A stretch of 64,000 bases of DNA, from contig CAIXFN010000081.1 of NCBI GenBank assembly GCA_903918755.1, positions 1 to 64,000 of the forward strand, written 5' to 3'. The notes below the pieces were generated by a model, which had not been told where the DNA came from, searched no databases, and was given only the letters and a program-made list of their open reading frames with translations. The translations under genes and the position numbers were made by a program. How positions within the stretch are numbered: position 1 is the stretch's first letter; every line of letters begins with the position of its first letter. Below, piece after piece: positions 48,044 through 61,071 of the stretch. This stretch comes from an uncultured Pedosphaera sp. Its GTDB lineage: Bacteria; Verrucomicrobiota; Verrucomicrobiia; Limisphaerales; Pedosphaeraceae.

Positions 48044-51000
48044 TCAATTCGTCGTCAGGAATTTCAGAAGTTCGATTTGTTCGCGCTCGCTGAGGGAATC
48101 CAGGAGGCCTTCGGGCATGAGGGATTTTTCGGAGGTGGTGCGGCGGCGGAGGTTGGCTTTGGGGACCACCATTTCGCCGGCGGTGGTTCGCAGGGTGACG
48201 GCACCGGACGTTTCGCCAGCGAGCAGGCCGGAGATGGTTTCGCCGTCATTCGTTTCCAATATCGTCACCTGAAAGTCGGCGCCAATGACGGCATCGGGGT
48301 CGATGATGTTTTCGAGGAAGTAGCGGATGCCGTGCTGGCCGGCACCGGTCAACTCGGGGCCGAGGCGCGCGCCTTCGTTGCCGATGCGATGACACTGGAG
48401 GCAGAGTTTCTGGAAATGCCCTTTGCCGGCGCCGCCGCTATAGGCCCAAAGGGGTGCTTCGTTGAAGATTTTTTCCAGGCGCGACATTTGGGCCTGCTTC
48501 TCTACGGGCGTCTGATGGATGCGCCCCCAGATCGCGGTCACCCGCTGATCGACAGCGTTGTCCTTCAGATTGGTCAGGCGCGTGACATGGTAGGCGGTCA
48601 ACTGATCGCGCGGGATCTTGCCGGCGGCCACCGCGTCAAGCAAAGCGAAGGCGAACGCCGGGCGGCTGGTCAGGACCTCGAGGGCAGCGGCACGGTCGGC
48701 GGATTTGAGGCCAGCGAAGCGGCTCAACAGCGCCGCAGGGATTCCGGCCTGGTCATAACGCGCAAGCAAATTGATTGCCGACGTGCGAAAGGCCGTGTCA
48801 TCGAGCAGGTTCAGGAAAACGGGGAACGAGGCGCCATCCCGCGCCCGGCTCAAGACGGCGAAGGCATGATCCCGCGCGGTCCGGTCGGCGCGTGCATCCG
48901 CCAGGGTGCTGCGTAAACGGGGGAAAGCGGTATCATCGCCAAACGCGGCGGAGAGACGTTCCGCGAGGCGTGGCACCTGGGGCTGAGCCGAGGCATACAG
49001 CGCGGGCGCGACGGATTTCCAGGCCGGTGGCATGGGCACATTCGCGCGCGGTTCCATCGCGAGCCAGAGCCCGGCCAACCGGCGATGCAGTGCATCGCCG
49101 TCCAGACCGGCCAACGAACCCACGACGCGATTCAACGCCTCGCCTTCCTGCGTGGCGGCGAACCACTGGATCCAATCGGCAATCTGCGGAAGCTGGGTTT
49201 CCTGCGCCACGGTCAGGGCCCGGTCGAGTGAGCTCGAGGGATGGCGCAGCCATTGCCGGGCCAAACCGTGCCAGAGGAGATACGGGAGATTGCGGTCGTC
49301 CCGATCCTCCCCATGCCGGGCGAGGGCTCCGATGAGCGGCCACGCCAACTCCTCCGACACTCGCGGGATCGCGGAAGCGAGATAGCGGCGGACGATCGGC
49401 GACGGATCGTTCTTGGCCAGCGCCAGGAATTTGGCGCCCAAGAGCGCACTGTTGGCGTTGCGTTCGGCCGCGAGTTGCACGGCCCAACCGCGGACAAACG
49501 GGTCCGGATCCTGCAACCAGCCGCCGAGTCGTTCTTCATTCCCGCCCCCGGCGAGATTCAAGGCCCAGACGGAGTTCAATCGCAAGGTGGCATCCGGACT
49601 CCGGGTGCTCACTTCCGCAAGTTTATCCAATCCGGCAGGCGCCACGCCGCCGGAGGTCTGCGCGCGTTCGTGCAGGAGACGGCGCGCGGTGCGCGCGAAC
49701 CATTGATTCTTGTGGGACTGCAATTCCACCAATTCCAGATCACTCTTCGCCGCGAGATTCACCTTCACGGGTTTATAGGTCGCCTGCCATTCCATGCGAT
49801 AGACTCGGCCGTTATCGCGATCCCAGCTTTCGGTGTTGGGATTGTGGCAATGCTGCTGGTCATACCAGTCGATGAAGTAAACCGCGCCATCCGGACCGTA
49901 TTGAAGATCCACGGCCACGTATTTCGGATCCGTGCAGAAAAGCAGATCGCGGCCGGCGTGAACGGTGTTGTAGCCCGAGCCGAGCGGCTGGTTGATCTGC
50001 TGATTGATTTGATGGCCACCGAGATTGTGGGTGAACAAGTGGCCGCGATATTCGTCCGGCCAATTATCGCCGAGGTAAATCATCGTGCCCACGTGCGAGT
50101 GCCCCCCGTAAATCGCATCACTGCCGGGGACGCCCGCGCCGCCCGCGCCGTGATCATAGCGGGCGGAGGAAAGCAGGTAATTGCGGAATTCAGGAAATTC
50201 CTTTGGCGGATTCGCAATGATGAACGGCGCGTAGTTGGCGTTTACCTGGTTCCAGAATTCACCACCCTGGATAACGTGGGTCGTCGGCCCCTTCCCCCAA
50301 TAGCTCCGGCAGTGGGTCATGAAAAACTGCCCATGCTCATCATAGTCGAGTCCCCAAGGGTTGCTGCCCCCACTGGCGAACACCTCGAACTCATGCCGGA
50401 TCGGATGGTAACGCCAGACGGCGGCGCGCACTTCGCGGCGTTCGCCGGGGGGCACGCCGGGTTTGCCGATCCGCGCGGTGTTGAAGACCCCCTGGTTGCC
50501 ATAGAGCCAGCCGTCTGGTCCCCAGAGAAAACTGTTCAGCACTTCATGGGTGTCCTGGTAGCCGAACCCGTCGAGCATCACCTCGGGCGGGCCGTCCGGG
50601 ATGTCGTCGTGATTGCGGTCGGGAATGAACAGCAGTTCCGGCGCGGCCCCGATCCACACGCCCCCGTAACCAATCTCGATGGCGCTCGCGAGGTTCAGAT
50701 GTTCCGCAAACACTTTGCGCGTTTCGAAACGCCCATCGCCGTCTTCGTCCGAAAGAATCACGATGCGGTCGAGCCCGGCGCCCGGCAGCCGCTTGGTCGG
50801 ATAACTGTAGGCCTCCACCACCCAAATCCGCCCGCGCTCATCCCAGGCGAACGCAACCGGCTGATGCAAATCCGGTTCACCGGCGATCGCCTCCACCTTG
50901 AAGCCAGCCAGCACATACATTTGCGCAACCGTTTGCTCCGGCGCGGTGCGCGGTGGCCCGGAAACGGGATTCGGACGAAGATCGCGGAGCACCGGGCTGG

Positions 51001-51127
51001 TCTTGAGACGGTCGATTCCCGGGAGGGGCTCTTCCCCATGCACGTTGGGTGGCAGCGCGGCGACCAGCAAAAACAGCCCGGCAGCGACGGCTGCAATGGG
51101 GAGAAAGAGTGAGTGGTGGGAACGCAT
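48044..51127 (-). CDS. PVC membrane-bound dehydrogenase/heme protein
   Basis: The preferred start is ATG 51127 (1027 residues), which leads directly into a signal peptide (LFLPIAAVAAGLFLLVAALPP); an upstream ATG at 51157 would add 10. The N-terminal part carries the PVC membrane-bound dehydrogenase pattern (LDRIVILSDEDGDGRFETRKVFAEHLNLASAIEIGYGGVWIG, a beta-propeller). Several HEAT repeats and a C-terminal CxxCH domain (LCLQCHRIGNEGARLGPELTG) with RRRTTSEKSLMPEGL follow. It is a paralogue in layout of the protein at 39219-42617. It is predicted to be a periplasmic oxidoreductase; the substrate is unknown. Confidence 0.88.
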   Translation of the reverse strand: MRSHHSLFLPIAAVAAGLFLLVAALPPNVHGEEPLPGIDRLKTSPVLRDLRPNPVSGPPRTAPEQTVAQMYVLAGFKVEAIAGEPDLHQPVAFAWDERGRIWVVEAYSYPTKRLPGAGLDRIVILSDEDGDGRFETRKVFAEHLNLASAIEIGYGGVWIGAAPELLFIPDRNHDDIPDGPPEVMLDGFGYQDTHEVLNSFLWGPDGWLYGNQGVFNTARIGKPGVPPGERREVRAAVWRYHPIRHEFEVFASGGSNPWGLDYDEHGQFFMTHCRSYWGKGPTTHVIQGGEFWNQVNANYAPFIIANPPKEFPEFRNYLLSSARYDHGAGGAGVPGSDAIYGGHSHVGTMIYLGDNWPDEYRGHLFTHNLGGHQINQQINQPLGSGYNTVHAGRDLLFCTDPKYVAVDLQYGPDGAVYFIDWYDQQHCHNPNTESWDRDNGRVYRMEWQATYKPVKVNLAAKSDLELVELQSHKNQWFARTARRLLHERAQTSGGVAPAGLDKLAEVSTRSPDATLRLNSVWALNLAGGGNEERLGGWLQDPDPFVRGWAVQLAAERNANSALLGAKFLALAKNDPSPIVRRYLASAIPRVSEELAWPLIGALARHGEDRDDRNLPYLLWHGLARQWLRHPSSSLDRALTVAQETQLPQIADWIQWFAATQEGEALNRVVGSLAGLDGDALHRRLAGLWLAMEPRANVPMPPAWKSVAPALYASAQPQVPRLAERLSAAFGDDTAFPRLRSTLADARADRTARDHAFAVLSRARDGASFPVFLNLLDDTAFRTSAINLLARYDQAGIPAALLSRFAGLKSADRAAALEVLTSRPAFAFALLDAVAAGKIPRDQLTAYHVTRLTNLKDNAVDQRVTAIWGRIHQTPVEKQAQMSRLEKIFNEAPLWAYSGGAGKGHFQKLCLQCHRIGNEGARLGPELTGAGQHGIRYFLENIIDPDAVIGADFQVTILETNDGETISGLLAGETSGAVTLRTTAGEMVVPKANLRRRTTSEKSLMPEGLLDSLSEREQIELLKFLTTN

Positions 51128-51282
51128 GGCACAGATGGGTTCAGGGGTCATGCTCATGCGCGGAAACTACCCGGCACGCCCGGAAAGCTCAACCGAAAAA
51201 CCTTCTGACCACGCGGTCAGATCGTCATTTGGGGTGGATTCCCGTTCCTTCGTGAGTTGATTTCCATTACCCTCGATTTGGA

Positions 51283-52263
51283 ATGCCAATTGTCACCGGT
51301 CCCAGTTACCAACCACCGCCGTTCCTCGCGAACGGGCACTTGCAAACCTGCCTGCCCGTGCTGATTCGCCGGTTGACACCGGTGCGTTACGAGCGGGAAG
51401 CGATCCAAACCCCCGATGGTGAATTGCTTAATCTAGATTGGGCGAAGACAGGTTCGGATTCGCGCAAACTCGCCGTCCTGGCGCATGGCCTCGAGGGAAG
51501 TTCGCGCAGTCAATATATCCAGGGATTGGTTCATGCCTTGAACCGACGTGGATGGCATGCAGTGGCATGGAATGGGCGGGGCTGCGGCGGTGAACTCAAC
51601 CGCGTGATGCGATTTACGCACAGCGGATCGACACAAGATCTCGCCACCGTGCTTTCGCATATCGGGTCCGTCGGCCAGCAATACGACCGGATTGCCCTCA
51701 TTGGCTTCAGCCTCGGAGGCAATTTGACGCTCAAATATCTGGGGGAACGCGGGGCGGAAGTCGATCCGCGGATCGTCGGGGCTGTGGCCTTCTCCGTGCC
51801 GTGCGATTTGCAATCCAGTTCCGTGGAGCTGGGCCGTCGAAGATTGAACCAAATTTACATGCGCTCCTTCCTCAAATCATTGCATCGAAAGATCCGCCAA
51901 TTGAAGGTGCAAATGCCCGGAGCCATCGACGACACTGGTTACGAACAAATCCGGAGCTTCAAGCAATTTGACGACCGCTACACCGCGCCCATCCACGGGT
52001 TCAAAGATGCGGAAGATTACTGGCACCAAAGCAGTTCCCGGCCCTTCCTTCCCAAGATTCGCGTTCCAACCCTGCTCGTAAACGCGCGCAACGATCCGTT
52101 CCTGGCGGAACCTTGTTTCCCTTATGAGGAGGCCAAAGCCAGCCCGCACTTTTTTCTGGAAGCACCCGCTTCCGGCGGCCACGTGGGCTTCCTGACCTTT
52201 GACCAGCAAGGCGAGTATTGGTCCGAACGCCGAACGGCGGAATTCCTCGGCCAACTGTTGTAA
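51283..52263 (+). CDS. YheT-family alpha/beta hydrolase
   Basis: The 326-residue cytosolic protein carries the YheT-type core: FLANGHLQT at the N-terminus, the lid-adjacent HGLEGSSRSQYIQGLVHAL, NGRGCGGELNR, the nucleophile in IGFSLGGNLTLKYLGE (GxSxG), NARNDPFL and the terminal histidine in GGHVGFL. These are putative esterases or acyl transferases of unknown substrate. It is divergent from the heme protein gene and precedes the sigma-54 promoter of the secreted cluster. Confidence 0.87.
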   Translation: MPIVTGPSYQPPPFLANGHLQTCLPVLIRRLTPVRYEREAIQTPDGELLNLDWAKTGSDSRKLAVLAHGLEGSSRSQYIQGLVHALNRRGWHAVAWNGRGCGGELNRVMRFTHSGSTQDLATVLSHIGSVGQQYDRIALIGFSLGGNLTLKYLGERGAEVDPRIVGAVAFSVPCDLQSSSVELGRRRLNQIYMRSFLKSLHRKIRQLKVQMPGAIDDTGYEQIRSFKQFDDRYTAPIHGFKDAEDYWHQSSSRPFLPKIRVPTLLVNARNDPFLAEPCFPYEEAKASPHFFLEAPASGGHVGFLTFDQQGEYWSERRTAEFLGQLL

Positions 52264-52289: not shown

Positions 52290-52356
52290 GTTCCGCGTTC
52301 CGTTCCGGCCGAAAACGTTCCGACTTCGGAACAACCGCCAGCTTCGAGACCGGAAC
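52290..52356. promoter_or_regulatory. Array of six GTTCCG/CGGAAC half-sites (UAS)
   Basis: Copies of GTTCCG occur at 52290-52295, 52297-52302, 52302-52307 and 52317-52322, and its complement CGGAAC at 52327-52332 and 52351-52356. The middle pair forms a 16-bp inverted repeat GTTCCGACTTCGGAAC (52317-52332). The array ends 62 bp before the -24 element, the usual place for an NtrC-class enhancer. The same half-site recurs at 59072-59101. Confidence 0.6.
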
Positions 52357-52417
52357 GTTGGTCGCTTCATTGAATAAACCCCAGCAATATCAGGGCTTTG
52401 CGGCGGTAAAACCACGT

Positions 52418-52433
52418 TGGCACAAGGGTTGCT
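52418..52433 (+). promoter_or_regulatory. Sigma-54 promoter (-24/-12)
   Basis: TGGCACAAGGGTTGCT fits the TGGCAC-N5-TTGC consensus: the invariant GG (52419-52420) and GC (52431-52432) are 10 bp apart. Transcription would start near 52444, about 85 bp before the first secreted-protein gene. Confidence 0.7.
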
Positions 52434-52529: not shown

Positions 52530-53096
52530 ATGAAACTCAAATCCAAATTCAGCTCCGTCCTCGCGGTCGCATTGCTCTGCGGTATCGCCGTCCAATCGCC
52601 CTCCATCTGGGCCAGCGGCGGGGCTACCGACCCGATTCCGGGGACGAGCAAGAGCGGACTGAACTCCGGTGGCGGCGGCGGCGGCAAAAAGTCGACCCCG
52701 GCCCCGACACCCACGCCCGCGCCAACTCCCGCTCCTGCGCCGGCACCCGCCCCGACGCCCATTGCTGCCGGGCCGATTACCTTTGCCGCCGCCGGACTGG
52801 TGAATGGCGTGCTGCCGGTTTGCACCGGCGATTTCGTGGTCGATCCGTACTATCCCACCTTGCTGGACATGACGTTGAACGTGAAGGTGAGTTCGCTCAA
52901 CGTTCCGGACGGCACGATCCTCTTTGTCAATGTCGTGGGTGTCGGCGGGACCCTGTATCCCTACACCAGCAACATCATCACCGTTCTTGGCGGCACCGGT
53001 GCCTGCACGGAAAAAGTATTCGTGACGCTCGGCGCCGGCCTCGCGGGGGTCGTGATCACGGATGCGAATGGCGGAGCGCTTTTCGCGGGAAACTAG
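52530..53096 (+). CDS. Small secreted protein with Pro/Ala/Thr linker
   Basis: The 188-residue product has a signal peptide (SSVLAVALLCGIAVQSPSIWA, cleavage before SGG). A glycine run, a low-complexity TPAPTP-type linker (about residues 52-75) and a 110-residue beta-rich domain ending in GGALFAGN follow. The domain has two cysteines (CTGD, GACTE) that could form a disulfide. I know no family for it. It is first after the sigma-54 promoter, which makes it the best candidate for a regulated output. Confidence 0.6.
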   Translation: MKLKSKFSSVLAVALLCGIAVQSPSIWASGGATDPIPGTSKSGLNSGGGGGGKKSTPAPTPTPAPTPAPAPAPAPTPIAAGPITFAAAGLVNGVLPVCTGDFVVDPYYPTLLDMTLNVKVSSLNVPDGTILFVNVVGVGGTLYPYTSNIITVLGGTGACTEKVFVTLGAGLAGVVITDANGGALFAGN

Positions 53097-53110
53097 ACTG
53101 ACCGGCTAAA

Positions 53111-53150
53111 GGCCCGGTGGCTGGCGAACGACATCCGCCACCACCGGGCC
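53111..53150 (+). terminator. Strong hairpin after first secreted-protein gene
   Basis: GGCCCGGTGG (53111-53120) pairs with CCACCGGGCC (53141-53150); an added TGGCG/CGCCA inner stem and a 9-nt loop complete it. Only a short T-containing tail (ATCTTTC) follows, so termination is likely partial and could set lower expression of the next genes. Confidence 0.5.
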
Positions 53151-53193
53151 ATCTTTCAGGTTCAACTTCCACCCTTATCTCTCCGGCAAAATT

Positions 53194-54171
53194 ATGAAGA
53201 CCAAATCATTTAACCTTTCGCTCCTTTGCGGCGCGCTCGTATTCCTGACGTTCGCCAGTCAATCTTTCGCGGTCTCGGTGGTCGGCGCATTGAGCAATTT
53301 CGATCTGTACAACGACACTAGTGTTTACTGCGATGAATTTGAACTGGTGATTTCCAACACATTACCGGCCGATATTTACGGAACCTGGAATTACAATCCG
53401 CATTACGGAACCCCCACCGTGACGGATATTGGGGGCGCCACGCTCATCCATTACATCGCCATTACCAACGACATCACCCCGCCCGGAGGAGTCGAACACT
53501 TTGGCGCAATCCTGGCTTCGTTCCCGACCAACGGCGTGATCTACACCTGGATGCATGCCGGGACGAATGTGGGAGTCGGCCGGCAATTTCCCACGCCGGT
53601 GCTGACCATTACGACCGTGCCGCCGACGACGACCAATCCCGAGGGTCGCGGCCCGCACCGCGAGGTGCGCAATACCGATGGCACGAACACCTACTGGGTC
53701 CAGCGGCTCACGGCGCGCACCAATGCCACGGTGTCGCTGGATGATCTGATGATGACCAACCTGGTGGTGCGGTCCACCACGAACATGGATGATCATCCGA
53801 AGCGTCTCGGCCCCGGCGCGCGGCTGTCGGACGACGACGACGCGGGAACGAACGATATCACGAGCGAATTGCTGTGCCTGCAAGTTTTCGCCGACAATAA
53901 TGGCAAACCCGGCCACCTGATCGGAAATTTCATGTCCAGCGGGCAGACGTTACGGGGCTCCCGCGCCGAAGGGATTCATCGCGGAGCCGACGGACGACAC
54001 ACCGTGGACTTCACCGTGGAGCCAACCACCAACTATATCGTGCAGTGCAGCGAAGACCTTCTCCACTGGACCAATATTGGGAGCATCCACACCAATCATT
54101 CCTCAGCGCATTTCACTGACAACGGAGCGACCAACCGGACCAAGGCGTATTATCGTTTGCAGAAACTATAA
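53194..54171 (+). CDS. Secreted protein, unknown
   Basis: The 325-residue product has a signal peptide (LSLLCGALVFLTFASQSFA). The mature part is beta-rich and Asn/Thr-rich (TNTYWVQRLTARTNATVSLDDLM). The last about 60 residues (VDFTVEPTTNYIVQCSEDLLHWTNIGS...YYRLQKL) are the C-terminal module repeatedly seen in secreted verrucomicrobial proteins, here also at the end of the 12607-15534 protein. Its function is unknown. It lies 97 bp downstream of the first secreted gene, behind the hairpin. Confidence 0.6.
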   Translation: MKTKSFNLSLLCGALVFLTFASQSFAVSVVGALSNFDLYNDTSVYCDEFELVISNTLPADIYGTWNYNPHYGTPTVTDIGGATLIHYIAITNDITPPGGVEHFGAILASFPTNGVIYTWMHAGTNVGVGRQFPTPVLTITTVPPTTTNPEGRGPHREVRNTDGTNTYWVQRLTARTNATVSLDDLMMTNLVVRSTTNMDDHPKRLGPGARLSDDDDAGTNDITSELLCLQVFADNNGKPGHLIGNFMSSGQTLRGSRAEGIHRGADGRHTVDFTVEPTTNYIVQCSEDLLHWTNIGSIHTNHSSAHFTDNGATNRTKAYYRLQKL

Positions 54172-54237: not shown

Positions 54238-54627
54238 ATGAAAACTCCAACAATGGCCCTTTATTCCATTCGTGCCGTCCTCGCCGTTATGGCGGTGCTC
54301 TTTGCGCTGGCTGTCGGACTGCATCCGGTGGGCGCGCGTGCCTCAGGAGGTAATGGCGGCACCAAGGCGGATACAGTCAAAGTCAGCAAATGTTTCTACG
54401 ACGCGCCAACTGGCCAGATGCTGATCAAAGCAAGCAGTTCCGACCCGGCGGCGACGTTGTATGCATACCTTCCCTCCGGCGCGCTGGCGGGAGAGGTTCA
54501 GAACGGCGGCGGCAGTCGTTACGGCGGCACAGTGATAGGATATTTTCCCACCAATCCGATCACCATTTGCATCCGGAGCACCGCGGGCGGGAGCATCGTG
54601 GTGCCAACAACGCCATTCCAGCCGTGA
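54238..54627 (+). CDS. Small secreted protein
   Basis: The 129-residue product has a signal peptide (IRAVLAVMAVLFALAVGLHPVGARA) and a mature start SGGNGG similar to the SGGATD mature start of the first secreted protein. A short beta-rich domain follows with two cysteines (SKCFYDAPTGQMLIK and ITICIRSTAGG). No family is recognised. It ends before a strong terminator, so these three genes make one transcription unit. Confidence 0.55.
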   Translation: MKTPTMALYSIRAVLAVMAVLFALAVGLHPVGARASGGNGGTKADTVKVSKCFYDAPTGQMLIKASSSDPAATLYAYLPSGALAGEVQNGGGSRYGGTVIGYFPTNPITICIRSTAGGSIVVPTTPFQP

Positions 54628-54664: not shown

Positions 54665-54693
54665 ATCGCCCGCCATAGAATATGGCGGGCGAT
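54665..54693 (+). terminator. Rho-independent terminator of secreted cluster
   Basis: A perfect 12-bp stem (ATCGCCCGCCAT / ATGGCGGGCGAT) with a 5-nt loop is followed by TGGCATTTTCC. It lies 38 bp past the 54627 stop and separates the secreted genes from the kinase gene. Confidence 0.75.
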
Positions 54694-54819
54694 TGGCATT
54701 TTCCGCGCTCAGGCAGCACCGTTTGTCACCTAATGCGCCAGGCCGTTTCCCCGGTTAGACTGGCCAACAAAGCCGTGTTTCCACGAAAGTTGCCCCTTGT
54801 CGCCGTTGAAGGCTCCGTT

Positions 54820-57519
54820 ATGATTACTTGGAACATGGCAGCACCTCAGGCCACCGGTCCTCGCATGGGTCCCGCCTTGCTGGTAGCGGCAGTGGTGGGA
54901 TTACTGGGCTTCGTTCTGGAAGAATCCTGCGCCAAATTCAGCTATGACCAGCTGCATGCCTTCAGCGGCATCCAAAGGAACGCCACCGCGGATTCGCCGG
55001 TGGTGATCGTTTATCTCGACCTGCCGACGTACCTGAATCAGCATCGCGACCCGACACAATTGTGGCCGCGCGAGCTGCATGCGCAACTGGTGCGCCGCCT
55101 CACCGCGGCGAAGGCGCGGGCGGTGGTCTTTGACATCGTCTTTGGGGATGCCGGGCCCAACCCAGCGGCCGATCAAGCCCTCGCTGACGCACTCCGCGAA
55201 AACGGCCGCGCAATCCTGGCGGCGGAATTCAGCCGGACAACCGTGGTCCCGGACGATCAGCATAATGGCGCCCAAATCCAAAGCATTCCTGCGATCCTGC
55301 CGCTATTTCGCGAAGCCGCCGCCGCCCATGGGCTGGCCTCGCAGCGCATTGATGACGACAACGAGGTCCGCCGTTACCTGGCCACTTTCTCCCATGGACA
55401 TTCACCCTCACTGACCTGGGCCACGGCCAAGTGGTTGCACTTGCCGGTCACCAGCCGGGCGGACAAAGTCGTGGAGGCGAACCACGCGTGGCTCCGGTAT
55501 TACGGTCCGCCCCTCACCATTCCCCACATCAGCTACACGCAGGTCCTCGAAGAGGGTGGAGTCGCGGATGATTTTTTTCGCGATAAAATCGTCTTTATCG
55601 GCGCCCGTTTGCCCCTGGAGGTGTTTAACCAACGGAATGACGAATTTCGGAATCCTTTTCACTCGGCGGACTACAAAACCTATTTTATGCCCGGAGTCGA
55701 AGTTCATGCCACGGAAATGCTGAACCTCATCCGGCGGGACGGACTCAGACGAATGTCCCCACCCGCTGACATAACCTTGCAACTTGCCGTAGCCCTGCTT
55801 TTCGGTGGAGGTTTGCTCTTGTTTCGGCCCATTCCGGCCACGATTATCGCTACCGTGGGCGCCGGACTGGTATTGGTGCTCGGCCTGGCGGCATTCGGGC
55901 GGGGAATCTGGTTTTCGTGGTTGGTGGTGGGCGGCGTCCAAATCCCAGCCGCGCTGTTCGGTTCGTGGCTCTGGCAGTTCCAGGACTGGTTCCTCACGCG
56001 CCGCAAGCTGGAGGCCGCCAAACGAATCGCCGACGCCAAAATCCGTGAACAGGCCGCGTTGATTGACAAGGCGCACGATGCCATTCTCGTCTGGGATCTC
56101 GCGGGAACCATCCTTTATGCCAACCCCGGCGCGGAGAAACTCTACGGCTGGAAACTGGCCGAAATGCTGCCCGATTCAGCCAGGCAAATGTTCTCCGCCG
56201 CTCCCGAGGCCGCCGAAAAGGCGCGCATGGCCACCCTGCGCGACGGCGAGTGGAACGGGGAGTTGGCGATGCAGACCCGCGCCGGGCAGGTCATCACGGT
56301 TGACAGCCGATGGACCCTCATCCGCGATGACCAAAGCCAGCCCTGCGCGTTGCTCCAAATCAGCATCGATGTCACGGAAAAGAAATCCCTGGAGCAACAG
56401 TTCCTGCGGGCGCAGCGCATGAACACGATCGGGACATTGGCCGGGGGAATGGCCCATGATCTCAATAACGCTCTTTCCCCGGTCTTGCTGGGAACACAAC
56501 TGCTGCGCCGGAAGACGACCGACGCCGGCGATCTCAAGTTGCTGACGATGATGGAATCCAGCACCCATCGCGGCGCGGAGATGGTGCAGCAGGTATTGCT
56601 CTTCGCGCGCGGTCGCGGCGGCCAGTTCGAGCGGATTGAGTTGCCGGGGCTGGTCAACGAGCTTGAAAAAATGGTCCGGGAAACTTTTCCCAAGAACATC
56701 ACGATCGAGAAATTTCTCCCGCGTGATCTGCGGGCGGTTTGGGGAAATCCAACGCAAGTGCATCAAGTCCTGCTCAATCTGAGTGTGAATGCGCGCGATG
56801 CGATGCCCGCCGGAGGACAGCTTTCACTGGTGGCCGACAATGTGGAACTGACGGAAGCGGAAGCGGCCGCCATCCCGGAGGGCAAACCCGGCCGCTATGT
56901 ATCGCTCGCCGTGGCGGACACGGGCATGGGAATGCCGCCCGAGGTGAAAGCGAAAATTTTCGAACCGTTTTTTACGACCAAGGGCGAAGGCACCGGCACG
57001 GGAATCGGACTGGCGACCGTCGCACGCATCCTCCATGGCCATCACGGATTTTTACGAGTGGAAAGCGAACCCGGACAGGGTACATCGTTTGAAGTCTTCC
57101 TGCCGTGCGCGCCGGAGGTGATCCCGGCGTTCCCTCAGGGCGAGGAGGCCGCCCTGCCCCGGGGCCACGGGGAGTTAATCCTACTGGTGGACGATGAGGT
57201 GGCCATCTGCGAACTGGTCGCGGGGGAGCTGCGGGAATTTGGCTACCGGGTGGTCACCGCGGGGAACGGCGCGGACGCCATCGCGGTATTCCGGCAACAC
57301 TCCCAGGAGGTTCGAGTGTTCGTTACCGACAGCGAAATGCCCGTGATGGGCGGGGCGCAGGCCCTGGTTGAGCTGCGGAAACTGAATCCAAAACTACCGG
57401 CCATTTTCACCGGCGGCGAACAACTGCTTGACCGGCCTCCGGGCGTGTTTGCGCTGACGAAGCCTTTTGCGCTACCAGAACTGCTCGGGGCGATTAATCG
57501 CACTTTGAACAACCTTTGA
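54820..57519 (+). CDS. CHASE2-PAS hybrid histidine kinase with receiver
   Basis: From ATG 54820 the protein has 899 residues: a first transmembrane helix, then a periplasmic CHASE2 domain (about 45-310, with [31 protein letters not shown] and [16 protein letters not shown]). Three membrane spans (about 320-390) follow. After them come a PAS domain, HisKA with H546 in GGMAHDLNN, HATPase_c ([42 protein letters not shown]) and a C-terminal receiver with phospho-acceptor near D837. CHASE2 senses unknown extracytoplasmic signals. It is coupled by a 20-bp gap to the sigma-54 regulator gene, its likely partner. An earlier start at 54682 lies in the terminator region and is rejected. Confidence 0.88.
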
Positions 57520-57539
57520 CTGCCCTTACATTGCCAGCC

Positions 57540-58943
57540 ATGAAAGCAACCGCTGCCCCGGTGGAAAGTTTCGCTTGCCTGATTGTCGATGACGATCAGG
57601 CGTTTGCGGCGATGGCGGCGGAAGTGGTGCGGGCCGCGGGGGCGGTGGTAACGCAGGCGCATGATCTCGCGGGAGCCCGGAAAGCCGCGCAGCAGCCGTT
57701 CGACCTGGTTTTGCTCGATAATCATTTGCCGGACGGCAAGGGTTACGAATTCTTCGACCAGATTTCCCGCCGCAATCCCAATGCCCCGATCGTCATGATC
57801 ACGGGCGCGCCGGATCTGGGTGAGGCCGTGACTCTCACGCGCAATGGCTTGTTCGAGTACCTGACCAAACCCATTTCGATCGCGGCCCTGGCGGCCTGCC
57901 TGAGTCGCGTCAAAATGCGTCTGCACGCCCGCCAAACCCCGGAGAATCCCACGGAATGGCTGGGCGATTCGCCAGCCATGCGCGAGGTCGGGCAATTTCT
58001 GCGGCAGGCGGCGAAGCACGCGGCGAGCACGGTCCTGCTGACGGGCGAAACCGGCACAGGCAAGGACCTGGCGGCCCGGGTGTTGCATCAGTTGAGCTAT
58101 CCGGGCGGTAACGCGCCTTTTATCGCGGTGAATTGCGCGGCTTTGCCCGGGGAGATGTTCGAATCCGAGCTCTTTGGGGCGGAACGCGGCGCATATACGG
58201 GTGCGGAGAAGAAGCGCGGCGGACTGGCGGCGGCGGCGGCGCATGGCACGCTGTTCCTCGACGAAATTGGGGAAGTACCCCTGGCATCCCAGGCCAAGTT
58301 ATTGCGGCTGCTCGAAGCGCGCGAATTCCGGCCGTTGGGCAGTACGGAAACACAACCGTTCACCGGACGGTTTGCGGCCGCGACCAACAAGAATCTCGCC
58401 GAGGAAGTCAAGGCGGGACGGTTCCGGGAGGACTTGCTGTATCGGTTTGACGTCTTCAGCATCGAACTGCCCCCCCTGCGCCAGCGTCGCGCCGACATTC
58501 CGGCTTTGGCGGAAATCCTGCTCGGGCAACTGGTCAAGAAATATGGGCGTTCCCGCCTCCTGCTGACACCCGAGGATGTCGGGCGACTCCTGGCCCACGA
58601 TTTTCCGGGGAATGTGCGCGAATTGCGAAACGTGCTGGAGCGCTCCCTCCTGAAAACCGAAGACGACGCCAAATGGCTGGCGCTGGACGTCAATTGGCTG
58701 AACCGCGCGGCGGCGGCACGGATCGCAAAGCCACCTGAGCCACCGGCCCCGGTAACTACCTCCGAGGAACCCTTACCACCGGAGCGCAATCTTCCGGCGA
58801 TCGAAGCACAGGAGTATCGCTTGATCCGCGATGCTTTGCGCGAGGCCAACGGGGGAATCCGGCGGGCCGCCACCAAGCTGGGCATGTCACCGCAGGCGCT
58901 GCTGCGCCGACTGGAGAAGTGGCCCGAACTGCGGGTGAATTAA
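57540..58943 (+). CDS. NtrC-type sigma-54 response regulator
   Basis: The 467-residue protein has an N-terminal receiver (D60 in FDLVLLDNHLPDG) and an AAA+ core with Walker A GETGTGKDL. The sigma-54 contact loop is GAYTGA (residues 217-222; Phe replaced by Tyr, a known variant), and GTLFLDEIGEVPL contains Walker B. A C-terminal Fis-type helix-turn-helix (IRRAATKLGMSPQALLRRLEKW) completes it. Its nearest upstream partner is the CHASE2 kinase. Two sigma-54 promoters with shared CGGAAC arrays on either side are probably its targets. The ATG at 57540 is chosen over a TTG at 57516. Confidence 0.92.
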   Translation: MKATAAPVESFACLIVDDDQAFAAMAAEVVRAAGAVVTQAHDLAGARKAAQQPFDLVLLDNHLPDGKGYEFFDQISRRNPNAPIVMITGAPDLGEAVTLTRNGLFEYLTKPISIAALAACLSRVKMRLHARQTPENPTEWLGDSPAMREVGQFLRQAAKHAASTVLLTGETGTGKDLAARVLHQLSYPGGNAPFIAVNCAALPGEMFESELFGAERGAYTGAEKKRGGLAAAAAHGTLFLDEIGEVPLASQAKLLRLLEAREFRPLGSTETQPFTGRFAAATNKNLAEEVKAGRFREDLLYRFDVFSIELPPLRQRRADIPALAEILLGQLVKKYGRSRLLLTPEDVGRLLAHDFPGNVRELRNVLERSLLKTEDDAKWLALDVNWLNRAAAARIAKPPEPPAPVTTSEEPLPPERNLPAIEAQEYRLIRDALREANGGIRRAATKLGMSPQALLRRLEKWPELRVN

Positions 58944-58955
58944 GATTGGCCCGAT

Positions 58956-59101
58956 CGGAACCACCGGTCGTAAGGATTCGGCAAAAAGCTCCGGGATCAG
59001 GAGGCGGCGTGGTGCTCAAATGCCACCCTCCACCGTCCGCAGCCGGGCAGCTGGCCAGGGTGTACCGAATCCGGAACAACCGGAACACCGCTCGCCGGAA
59101 C
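58956..59101. promoter_or_regulatory. CGGAAC half-site array before secreted operon
   Basis: CGGAAC occurs at 59072-59077, 59081-59086 and 59096-59101, and once more at 58956-58961. The last three fall in 30 bp and end 95 bp before the -24 element, repeating the motif found at 52290-52356. The rest of the 58944-59265 gap holds only the promoter described next. Confidence 0.5.
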
Positions 59102-59194: not shown

Positions 59195-59210
59195 TGGCAT
59201 AATGATTGCT
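59195..59210 (+). promoter_or_regulatory. Sigma-54 promoter before secreted PPC/Ig gene
   Basis: TGGCATAATGATTGCT has GG (59196-59197) and GC (59208-59209) spaced by 10 bp and the TTGC -12 box. Transcription would begin near 59221, about 45 bp before the gene start at 59266. Confidence 0.6.
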
Positions 59211-59265
59211 TTGATGGATAATGTCGGGCGGGCCTCATTCAATTTGCGGCCCTCCCGGGCGAATA

Positions 59266-61071
59266 ATGAAGTCAAATCGAACCACGAACAACCAAGTCGG
59301 GAATTGTTGGCGCTACGCGCTGGCAGTGTTGTTCCTTTTTGCTGCCGTCCTTCAGGCGGGCGCGGTTTCGCTGCAGGATTATTTCACGAATCGGGAAACG
59401 ATCGTGACGGTGTCTGGAACTCTCCTCGGCGACAATTCCACCGCGACTTTTGAGGTGGGGGAACCCAATCACGGCGGCAAACGAGGCGGCCATTCGTTGT
59501 GGATCTCCTGGATTGCCCCTACCAACGGTGTGGCCACCTTTGACACCCACGGGAGCAGCTTTGACACGCTGCTCTCGGCCTATACGCTGAACCCCACCAA
59601 CGCGACGACCGTCGATCGACTGCACGAAGAGGCGCGCAACGACGATGACCCGGGATTTCAACCGACGAGCCTGATTCAAATCGGGGCCATTGCGGGTCGG
59701 CATTACGAAATCGCGGTGGACGGTTACGAGGGTGCAACGGGCACAGTGGCATTTCACTGGAGTTTTCTGCCATCGGCCGCGCCACCGCCGATCATTATCA
59801 GTACGCCAAATGACGAGTCAGCGAAGCAAGGCGACCAGGTGACGTTGACCGTGAACATGACCACCTCAGGCAACCTGCAACTGGCCTGGTTTTTTAACGG
59901 CGTCGAAGACACCGTTCAAACCACCGCGAGCTATGTCATCGCGAGTCTCCAGGATGTAAATGTCGGCCGCTACCAATTGCGGGTGACGGTGGGCAACGGC
60001 AACAACCGGGTGCGTTTTTTCACCACGCCGGTGGAAATCCAGATCAACTCGGAAGGCTCCACCAATACGCTCGCCCAGGATAAGCTGCTGGATGCCTCCG
60101 GAAGCGCCCTGCAAGGTGAGGACGGCACCGGCGGCGGGGGCCCCCATGTGCTTCCCCTCCCACTTCCGAGCCGTCCGGGGCCGATTTTCCTCCCGCGTCC
60201 CAAGCCCCGTCCCGCGGACCTCGGCGTGGTCAGGGGCTACAATGGCAGCCAGGTGTTCAACACGACCTTCGCCACTATTGACCCTGCGGAACCACCCCAT
60301 TGCGGAGTGAAAGGCGGGGCATCGTATTGGCTGATGTACCAGCCGCCGACCAACGGCACGGTGACTTTGGACACCCTGGGCAGCACCTACGACACGGTGA
60401 TGGAAGTCTACACGTTTAATGGCGCGCTCAAATCTTACGCCGATTTGATCTCGATCACCTGCGACAACGACAGCCTGGGAGCCCATGGCGGATCGCGCGT
60501 CACGTTTCAGACCATCAAAACCCGGGCGTACGTCGTGGTCGTGGACGGAGTCGCTGGCGCGCGCGGCACCGCCTGGCTGAATTATGTGCTCAACACCAAT
60601 CTGCCACCCCAGGCGCCGACGCTGCAAACGCTGGAGCCGGGCCGAACGGTGGTCGCCGGAGCGAACCTCACCCTGGCACCGGCCATCGTCGGCGTGGCAC
60701 CGCTGCAGTATAGCTGGCGGAAAAATGCTTCACTCATTCCGGGCGCGCAGTTTCCCTTCCTCCCGTTGACCAACCTTGGGGTGGCGGATTCGGGAGACTA
60801 CTCGCTCACGGTGACGAATGATCTGGGAGCGTTGGTCGTCACTATTCCGGTGCACGTAGTGGTTCCAACAAGCTGTGCCATTGAATGGACCGCGAAAGAC
60901 TTAGAGTTGAGCTTTCCGACCATGGCAAACAACCGCTATACGATTGAGCACGCCACCAGTTTGCCAGGGCCTTGGTTGCCCTGGGCCCCGCCATTCGTCG
61001 GCGATGGGCAGACGTTTGCCACAAATATTCTCGGGCCGGGAAATAGATTCTTCCGGCTGCACATCGAATGA
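59266..61071 (+). CDS. Secreted protein with two PPC-like and Ig domains
   Basis: The 601-residue protein has a signal peptide (RYALAVLFLFAAVLQAGA). Two copies of a PPC-like beta domain (ATFEVGEPNHGGKRGGHSLWISW...STFDTLLSAYT near 40-150 and FATIDPAEPPHCGVKGGASYWLMY near 340-450) alternate with Ig-like domains (LQLAWFFNGVEDTV, YSWRKNASLIPGAQFPFL). The end is the typical IEHATSLPGPW...FFRLHIE module. It is an extracellular binding or scaffold protein. The stop overlaps the start of the FecR fusion gene (ATGA), so the two are co-translated from the sigma-54 promoter. Confidence 0.7.
   Translation: MKSNRTTNNQVGNCWRYALAVLFLFAAVLQAGAVSLQDYFTNRETIVTVSGTLLGDNSTATFEVGEPNHGGKRGGHSLWISWIAPTNGVATFDTHGSSFDTLLSAYTLNPTNATTVDRLHEEARNDDDPGFQPTSLIQIGAIAGRHYEIAVDGYEGATGTVAFHWSFLPSAAPPPIIISTPNDESAKQGDQVTLTVNMTTSGNLQLAWFFNGVEDTVQTTASYVIASLQDVNVGRYQLRVTVGNGNNRVRFFTTPVEIQINSEGSTNTLAQDKLLDASGSALQGEDGTGGGGPHVLPLPLPSRPGPIFLPRPKPRPADLGVVRGYNGSQVFNTTFATIDPAEPPHCGVKGGASYWLMYQPPTNGTVTLDTLGSTYDTVMEVYTFNGALKSYADLISITCDNDSLGAHGGSRVTFQTIKTRAYVVVVDGVAGARGTAWLNYVLNTNLPPQAPTLQTLEPGRTVVAGANLTLAPAIVGVAPLQYSWRKNASLIPGAQFPFLPLTNLGVADSGDYSLTVTNDLGALVVTIPVHVVVPTSCAIEWTAKDLELSFPTMANNRYTIEHATSLPGPWLPWAPPFVGDGQTFATNILGPGNRFFRLHIE

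Follow-up and report, generated by a model that had tools for sequence, protein, structure and literature searches.

The closest described relatives of the locus reported here are the NtrC-glnA enhancer and the upstream activating sequences of other sigma-54 activators (bEBPs), in which palindromic dimer sites, often in tandem, lie upstream of a -24/-12 promoter and the intervening DNA is looped, sometimes with the aid of IHF (PMC7057263, PMC6296734). Dependence on the face of the helix has been described in an NtrC-regulated system (PMC7408454, citing K. pneumoniae nifLA work). Reconstructions of sigma-54 regulons in other phyla, the Clostridiales (PMC6615313) and Desulfovibrio (PMC4641369), follow the same logic of an activator-linked motif and a -24/-12 promoter; in Clostridiales, motif similarity is reported to follow similarity of the DNA-binding domain, with most sites 100-250 bp upstream of the promoter (PMC6615313). 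The arrangement in the window (the whole stretch of 64,000 nucleotides analysed; Table 1) shares the palindromic sites and the promoter class with the NtrC-glnA enhancer and its kin, but differs in its operator (GTTCCG-N4-CGGAAC), its CHASE2 sensor, its predicted secreted-protein targets and its spacing, the distance from operator end to -24 element here being 51-105 bp for 27 exact pairs and 115 bp for one more. Another likeness is to the PrsK/PrsR pair of the XrtA/PEP-CTERM system (TIGR02916/TIGR02915), which also combines a kinase with a sigma-54 response regulator and is linked to secreted-protein genes. The scores reject membership of that family (69.3 against a cut-off of 300 for TIGR02916 and 253 against 502.6 bits for TIGR02915), and nitrogen-assimilation NtrC (TIGR01818) as well, at 301 against a curated cut-off of 558.6 bits.

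We propose, with a probability of about 0.88, that array 1 is the upstream activating sequence of the adjacent regulator, the partner of the CHASE2 kinase, and would drive the secreted-protein genes of the locus and perhaps the regulator's own operon. The array has the properties of a bEBP upstream activating sequence, being palindromic, tandem, upstream of the promoter and conserved together with the proposed activator. This kind of switch is known; the operator and the regulon appear to be new.

Table 1. Features of the locus, in positions of the 64-kb window
Feature	Position	Strand	Remarks
alpha/beta-hydrolase gene	51283-52263		ends just before array 1
Array 1, six GTTCCG/CGGAAC half-sites	52290-52356 (67 bp)	.	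sequence reading and motif search
Core operator GTTCCGACTTCGGAAC (GTTCCG-N4-CGGAAC)	52317-52332	.	85 bp before -24 element
Weaker second operator GCTTCGAGACCGGAAC	52341-52356	.	2 mismatches; 61 bp before -24 element
Candidate IHF bending site WATCARNNNNTTR	52388-52400	+	full match to consensus TATCAGGGCTTTG; between operator and promoter
-24/-12 promoter TGGCACAAGGGTTGC	52418-52432	+	full match to TGGCAC/T-N5-TTGC
188-aa Gly/Pro-rich protein, signal-like N-terminus	52530-53096	+	first gene past promoter
Strong hairpin after first gene	53111-53150	+	-35.6 kcal/mol (53097-53170), z -5.2
325-aa protein, signal-like N-terminus	53194-54171	+	
129-aa protein, signal-like N-terminus	54238-54627	+	
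CHASE2-PAS-HisKA-HATPase hybrid kinase with C-terminal receiver (sensor)	54682-57519	+	945 aa
NtrC-type response regulator	57516-58943	+	receiver, sigma-54 activation domain, Fis-type HTH
Array 2: GTaCCGAATCCGGAAC at 59062-59077 (1 mismatch) and CGGAAC at 59081 and 59096	59062-59101	.	
Second -24/-12 promoter TGGCATAATGATTGC	59195-59209	+	117 bp past array-2 operator
616-aa secreted-type protein, Ig domain	59221-61071	+	
FecR-TPR-beta-barrel protein, 1173 aa	61068-64000	+	continues to contig position 64589, beyond the window

Array 1 sits between the end of the hydrolase gene and the 52530-53096 gene, whose protein has no Pfam or NCBIfam match; the signal peptides of the locus proteins were judged by eye from their N-termini. 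The hairpin behind that gene has no T-run and is not among the terminator-like sites, and it is possibly an attenuator, or a cap or stabiliser of the operon's first mRNA. The regulator matches PF00072, PF00158 and PF02954, all above their cut-offs, which gives it the NtrC-type architecture, and carries GAYTGA at residue 225 as its sigma-54 contact loop; Tyr can occupy the place of Phe in the GAFTGA loop (PMC7057263). Its Fis-type HTH contains SPQALLRRLEKW at residue 458. The sigma-54 gene itself is represented in the genome by one PF04552 match (E 8e-59). Downstream of the second promoter, the 61068-64000 gene joins a FecR domain, a TPR superhelix and a TonB-receptor-like beta-barrel in a single protein; its AlphaFold2 model is weak overall (mean pLDDT 60.7, pTM 0.42, 9 sequences), and Foldseek searches with its parts returned TPR superhelices and TonB-dependent outer-membrane receptors. 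The FecR-TPR-barrel gene comes directly after the regulator, with no Ig-domain gene between them, in three sister-type loci (L077, L081, L082).

The case for the adjacent regulator begins with its orthologues. Of 246 related regulators, the best 80 from named genomes were examined with their loci. The first 19 loci (L067-L085, two partial), with regulators 50-78% identical, contain 16 exact copies of GTTCCG-N4-CGGAAC, other gaps from 0 to 14 occurring at most once each, and the exact gap-4 palindrome was found in none of the 61 loci of distant regulators. When all 6-N4-6 inverted repeats were counted in the 22 loci whose regulators have a Ser-Pro-type recognition helix (the window left aside), GTTCCG was present in 18 and the runner-up in 4, which is also the maximum that any such motif reached in 60 shuffles of these loci; GTTCCG likewise came top among 6-mers with gaps of 0-15 allowed. 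The core operator of array 1 is an exact match to this palindrome, recovered from the orthologous loci without a preset motif. The conserved unit is the 16-bp palindrome with its 4-bp gap, and the additional half-sites of the array look secondary.

The recognition helix is readable in 48 of the 51 distinct regulators (L079 and L085 are cut off and the frame of L247 is broken): 23 are Ser-Pro-Gln, 23 have His for Pro (17 Thr-His and 6 Ser-His) and two are Thr-Pro-Gln. The exact palindrome is present in the locus DNA of 19 of the 23 Ser-Pro-type regulators and of none of the 25 sister regulators (Fisher p 8e-10, from similar amounts of DNA, 186 kb for 22 Ser-Pro-type loci and 167 kb for the 25 others, with lengths varying between loci), although 22 of the 23 Ser-Pro-type rows fall on one side of a 100/99 branch of the tree, so that this is essentially one change and the counts are not independent events. 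Three of the four Ser-Pro-type misses (L070, L174 and L076, from genomes G442, G437 and G529) have an operator with a promoter elsewhere in the genome; the fourth, L261, is a distant sequence from a 57%-complete assembly (G453), in which operator and promoter were not found. The records of L070 and L076 are titled Akkermansia muciniphila and their regulators lie inside the Ser-Pro clade of this order; the titles look doubtful.

The palindrome is also coupled to sigma-54 promoters across genomes. Scanning for operator-N50-80-TGGCAN6YTGC identified 17 of the 320 genomes of the order, and a reversed-pattern control none; the window's own genome is outside the 17 because its operator-promoter distance is 85 bp. 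The pattern occurs in 15 of the 47 genomes with a regulator match (E<=1e-105), each of the 15 encoding a Ser-Pro-type regulator, versus 2 of the 273 without (p 4e-12). In those two incomplete genomes (G438, 78% complete; G470, 67% complete) the first downstream genes resemble, by eye, the Ig-domain target family. A class-wide scan of 384 genomes found the GTTCCG pattern in one, which belongs to the same order. The coupling is incomplete: the 22 Ser-Pro-type loci contain 25 exact palindromes, and a promoter match lies within 150 bp of 18 of them. As for the other seven, that of L071 has its nearest match 181 bp away and about 3 bp off phase, that of L178 lies at a contig end, and those of L073:3009, L171, L172, L181 and L182 have no promoter match.

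These results bear on the possibility that the array is bound by some other sigma-54 activator encoded in this genome and not by the adjacent one. Such activators exist: at E<=1e-60 the regulator has 12 matches in the genome, itself counted. We nevertheless regard this alternative as improbable, since the palindrome follows the adjacent regulator's orthologues and is missing beside the sister group, since 15 of the 17 genomes with operator and promoter encode that orthologue, and since in 11 of the 16 Ser-Pro-type loci with an exact site within 900 bp past the regulator's stop codon the site begins only 2-7 bases after that stop.

Within the window's genome the picture is narrower. The check proposed in the earlier note, whether dense clusters coincide with sigma-54 promoters, gave a negative answer for such promoters in general: of the 65 TGGCAY-N5-TTGC places in this genome 30 were fetched, and these have at most two half-sites in the 200 bp upstream. 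Of the genome's six exact palindromes, that of array 1 alone has a -24/-12-like site inside 200 bp; the other five have none. When up to one mismatch is allowed, the genome contains 61 palindromes, no enrichment over the 80 of the reversed pattern. A genome-wide regulon in this genome is rejected on the grounds that just one of the six exact palindromes stands beside a -24/-12-like site. Given the sparse half-sites at the promoters fetched and this single pairing, the array looks local to this locus here.

The predicted targets recur with the operator. The 52530 gene has homologues in 12 of the 320 genomes, this one counted, and in seven of the 12 the 350 bp upstream contain 3-6 half-sites. 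Few or none precede the remaining five (L236 0, L238 0, L239 2, L242 0, L243 1); among their genomes, G562 and G627 have no regulator at threshold, and G527, G526 and G620 have a Thr-His-type regulator. Upstream of L243 there are four GGTCCG/CGGACC half-sites instead of GTTCCG, and L238, where no regulator was detected, has two as well. The other readable first genes past operator and promoter in relatives include some for proteins like the Ig-domain and FecR-TPR-barrel proteins, with the reservation that for several rows the reading frame picked automatically as the first is plainly not that of the gene.

The spacing between operator and promoter provides a further, geometric line of evidence. 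In 27 exact pairs, drawn from the window, L067-L085 and L162-L211 (later loci are outside the test), the gap from operator to -24 element falls at 51-53 (4 pairs), 62-64 (4), 71-75 (11), 80, 85, 93-94 (2) and 102-105 bp (4). These distances have a period of 10.5 bp (R 0.77). A periodicity this strong at 10-11 bp arose in none of 20,000 uniform random sets, although such p values are optimistic because the loci share ancestry. With the 25 pairs whose spacers are less than 60% identical, the best period in a search over 6-20 bp was again 10.5 (R 0.76). The phasing is alike by source, with R 0.77 for the 19 pairs from protein-fetched loci and 0.79 for the 8 pattern-only pairs, the latter being limited by the pattern in their distance range and not in their phase. 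A later exact pair, L240, lies in phase at 115 bp, outside the 27. In the window itself, the operator at 85 bp and the one-mismatch operator at 117 bp miss the best phase by 1.5-2 bp. The half-sites at 52351 and 59096, when extended to 16-mers whose ends are 61 and 93 bp from the promoter, miss it by 1-1.6 bp in the opposite direction, and those at 52290, 52302 and 59081 by at least 3 bp. Such distance clusters among natural promoters point to a stereospecific constraint acting in evolution, as opposed to one seen in a single engineered promoter. The reading of the array as an enhancer before a sigma-54 promoter, first made in the earlier note, is thereby supported by sequence from three sides: the palindrome is conserved beside orthologues of the adjacent activator, it recurs in other genomes before -24/-12 sites that precede the same gene families, and it keeps a helical phase to the promoter.

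The same geometry counts against an operator of a repressor or other regulator class, for example a LexA box, that happens to lie near a sigma-54 promoter. The Verrucomicrobia LexA motif is TGTTC-N4-GAACA, and TGTTC/GAACA half-sites are common to both motifs, TGTTC with a gap of 8 being present in 13 of the 22 Ser-Pro-type loci. However, the gap from TGTTC to GAACA in the extended palindrome is 8 rather than the 4 of LexA, the readable first downstream genes look like those of secreted proteins, and the distances from operator to -24 element are helically phased, so that we consider an origin of this kind very unlikely.

Array 1 is real and non-random. Six half-sites within 67 bp had been claimed for it, and both count and positions are borne out: GTTCCG starts at 52290, 52297, 52302 and 52317 on the plus strand, and CGGAAC at 52327 and 52351. 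The palindromic pair, with 7-bp arms separated by 2 bp, reads GTTCCGA-CT-TCGGAAC (52317-52332), and the near-perfect -24/-12 promoter reported behind the array proved to be a full match. The background rate of one hexamer per 2 kb was too low, the actual figure being about 1 per 0.94 kb (68 copies in the 64-kb window, versus a shuffle mean of 56.5, with 9 of 100 shuffles having as many), and 20 stretches of the genome, sampled to a total of 400 kb, carry 0.9 per kb. The clustering withstood this correction. Equally dense clusters elsewhere, which would have spoken against the array, were absent from the 400-kb sample, where no 67 bp held more than 3 copies, and 150 third-order Markov simulations of the window also gave at most 3; of the 2063 hexamer families in the window, CGCCGC is the sole other one to reach six per 67 bp. 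A chance cluster or dispersed repeat element, which the one-base overlap of the 52297 and 52302 copies might recall, as a small duplication would produce it, is contradicted by the sample, the simulations and the recurrence of the palindrome beside orthologues in other genomes, with spacers mostly unrelated.

Beyond what the earlier note described, array 2 and the second -24/-12 site repeat the arrangement downstream of the regulator gene, array 2 being weaker than array 1; the sigma-54 promoter consensus TGGCAC/T-N5-TTGC is matched at both promoters. The IHF-like site between the core operator and the first promoter is one of 3 full matches to the IHF consensus in the 64-kb window, and is a lead as a candidate bending site. 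As a general element of these promoters the site was rejected, since over the 27 spacers its enrichment is only slight and marginal (mean mismatches 2.26 versus 2.48, with 2 of 100 composition shuffles as low).

For the adjacent regulator as activator of this locus, we infer the following scheme. The CHASE2 kinase would sense an extracytoplasmic signal and phosphorylate the regulator, dimers of which would occupy the palindrome GTTCCG-N4-CGGAAC at 52317 together with the weaker half-sites beside it, and then oligomerise. The DNA between operator and promoter would be looped, perhaps with a bend at 52388-52400, and at 52418-52432 the regulator's GAYTGA loop would serve to open sigma-54 RNA polymerase. 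The 52530 secreted-protein gene would thereby be switched on and, if transcription reads through, so would the genes that follow it, as far as those of the kinase and the regulator. Array 2 would act in the same way at 59195 for the Ig-domain and FecR-TPR-barrel genes.

The sister regulators may have an operator of their own. Among non-coding 6-N4-6 palindromes, GGTCCG-N4-CGGACC ranks first in the 25 non-Ser-Pro loci, being present in five, all of Thr-His type, the shuffles giving a maximum of 3 for any such motif. GCCTGA-N4-TCAGGC, tied at 5 of 25, was set aside because its letters read as the recognition-helix codons for Gly-Leu-Thr-His-Gln-Ala. GGTCCG-N4-CGGACC is absent from the 22 Ser-Pro-type loci, from 1.05 Mb of control DNA and from the window; on its own, 5 of 25 against 0 of 22 loci is borderline (p 0.05). 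With a promoter 50-80 bp further on, the palindrome occurs in 4 of 320 genomes: G619 has a Thr-His-type regulator (L260), G629 probably has one, as its match start is the same as that of L083, G625 has a regulator cut off before the helix, and G478 has none at threshold. The GGTCCG sites show no significant phasing (R 0.47 over 7 distinct distances, p 0.22). At L246:7569, L249:6718, L260:71 and L082:4037 there are GGTCCG/CGGACC arrays like those of the window, a further full or near copy lying 23-33 bp from the palindrome.

The two operators differ by one base pair per half-site, and it is tempting to propose that the operator switched with the helix, Ser-Pro before Gln-Ala-Leu-Leu-Arg-Arg-Leu going with GTTCCG-N4-CGGAAC and the Thr-His sisters with GGTCCG-N4-CGGACC, the geometry and the sigma-54 promoters staying the same; we hold this tentatively, at a little short of an even chance. 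The comparison suggests a natural specificity switch, as a lead rather than a demonstration. In LuxO, an activator of the same class, alanine changes in the recognition helix are reported to be critical (PMC11407668). Hybrid operators, one half GTTCCG and the other GGTCCG, were seen at L191:1380-1395 and L078:4040-4055; the first belongs to a Thr-Pro regulator and the second to its Thr-His sister, so that either helix residue may be the decisive one. A paired change of helix and operator would make the specificity of a Fis-type activator testable with two proteins and two DNA sites and, if true, the switch together with the whole-turn shifts of the operator would form a natural series from which the DNA code of sigma-54 activators and their face-of-helix rule could be read.

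Our literature search, which left most subscription journals outside, found no paper on a Verrucomicrobia sigma-54 regulon or on a CHASE2 or FecR two-component link, and GTTCCG was in no paper among the matches listed; in a word-start search, neither GTTCCG nor CGGAAC occurs in the main text of the Desulfovibrio study (PMC4641369). The helical spacing and the matching change in the sister regulators may likewise be new. For Verrucomicrobiota, the outcome is a sigma-54 two-component regulon, as a prediction, whose operator, promoters and target families are defined. Further upstream in the window, a PVC-type heme-binding CxxCH protein (TIGR02604, TIGR02603) is encoded on the minus strand at 48044-51157, apparently unrelated to the array.
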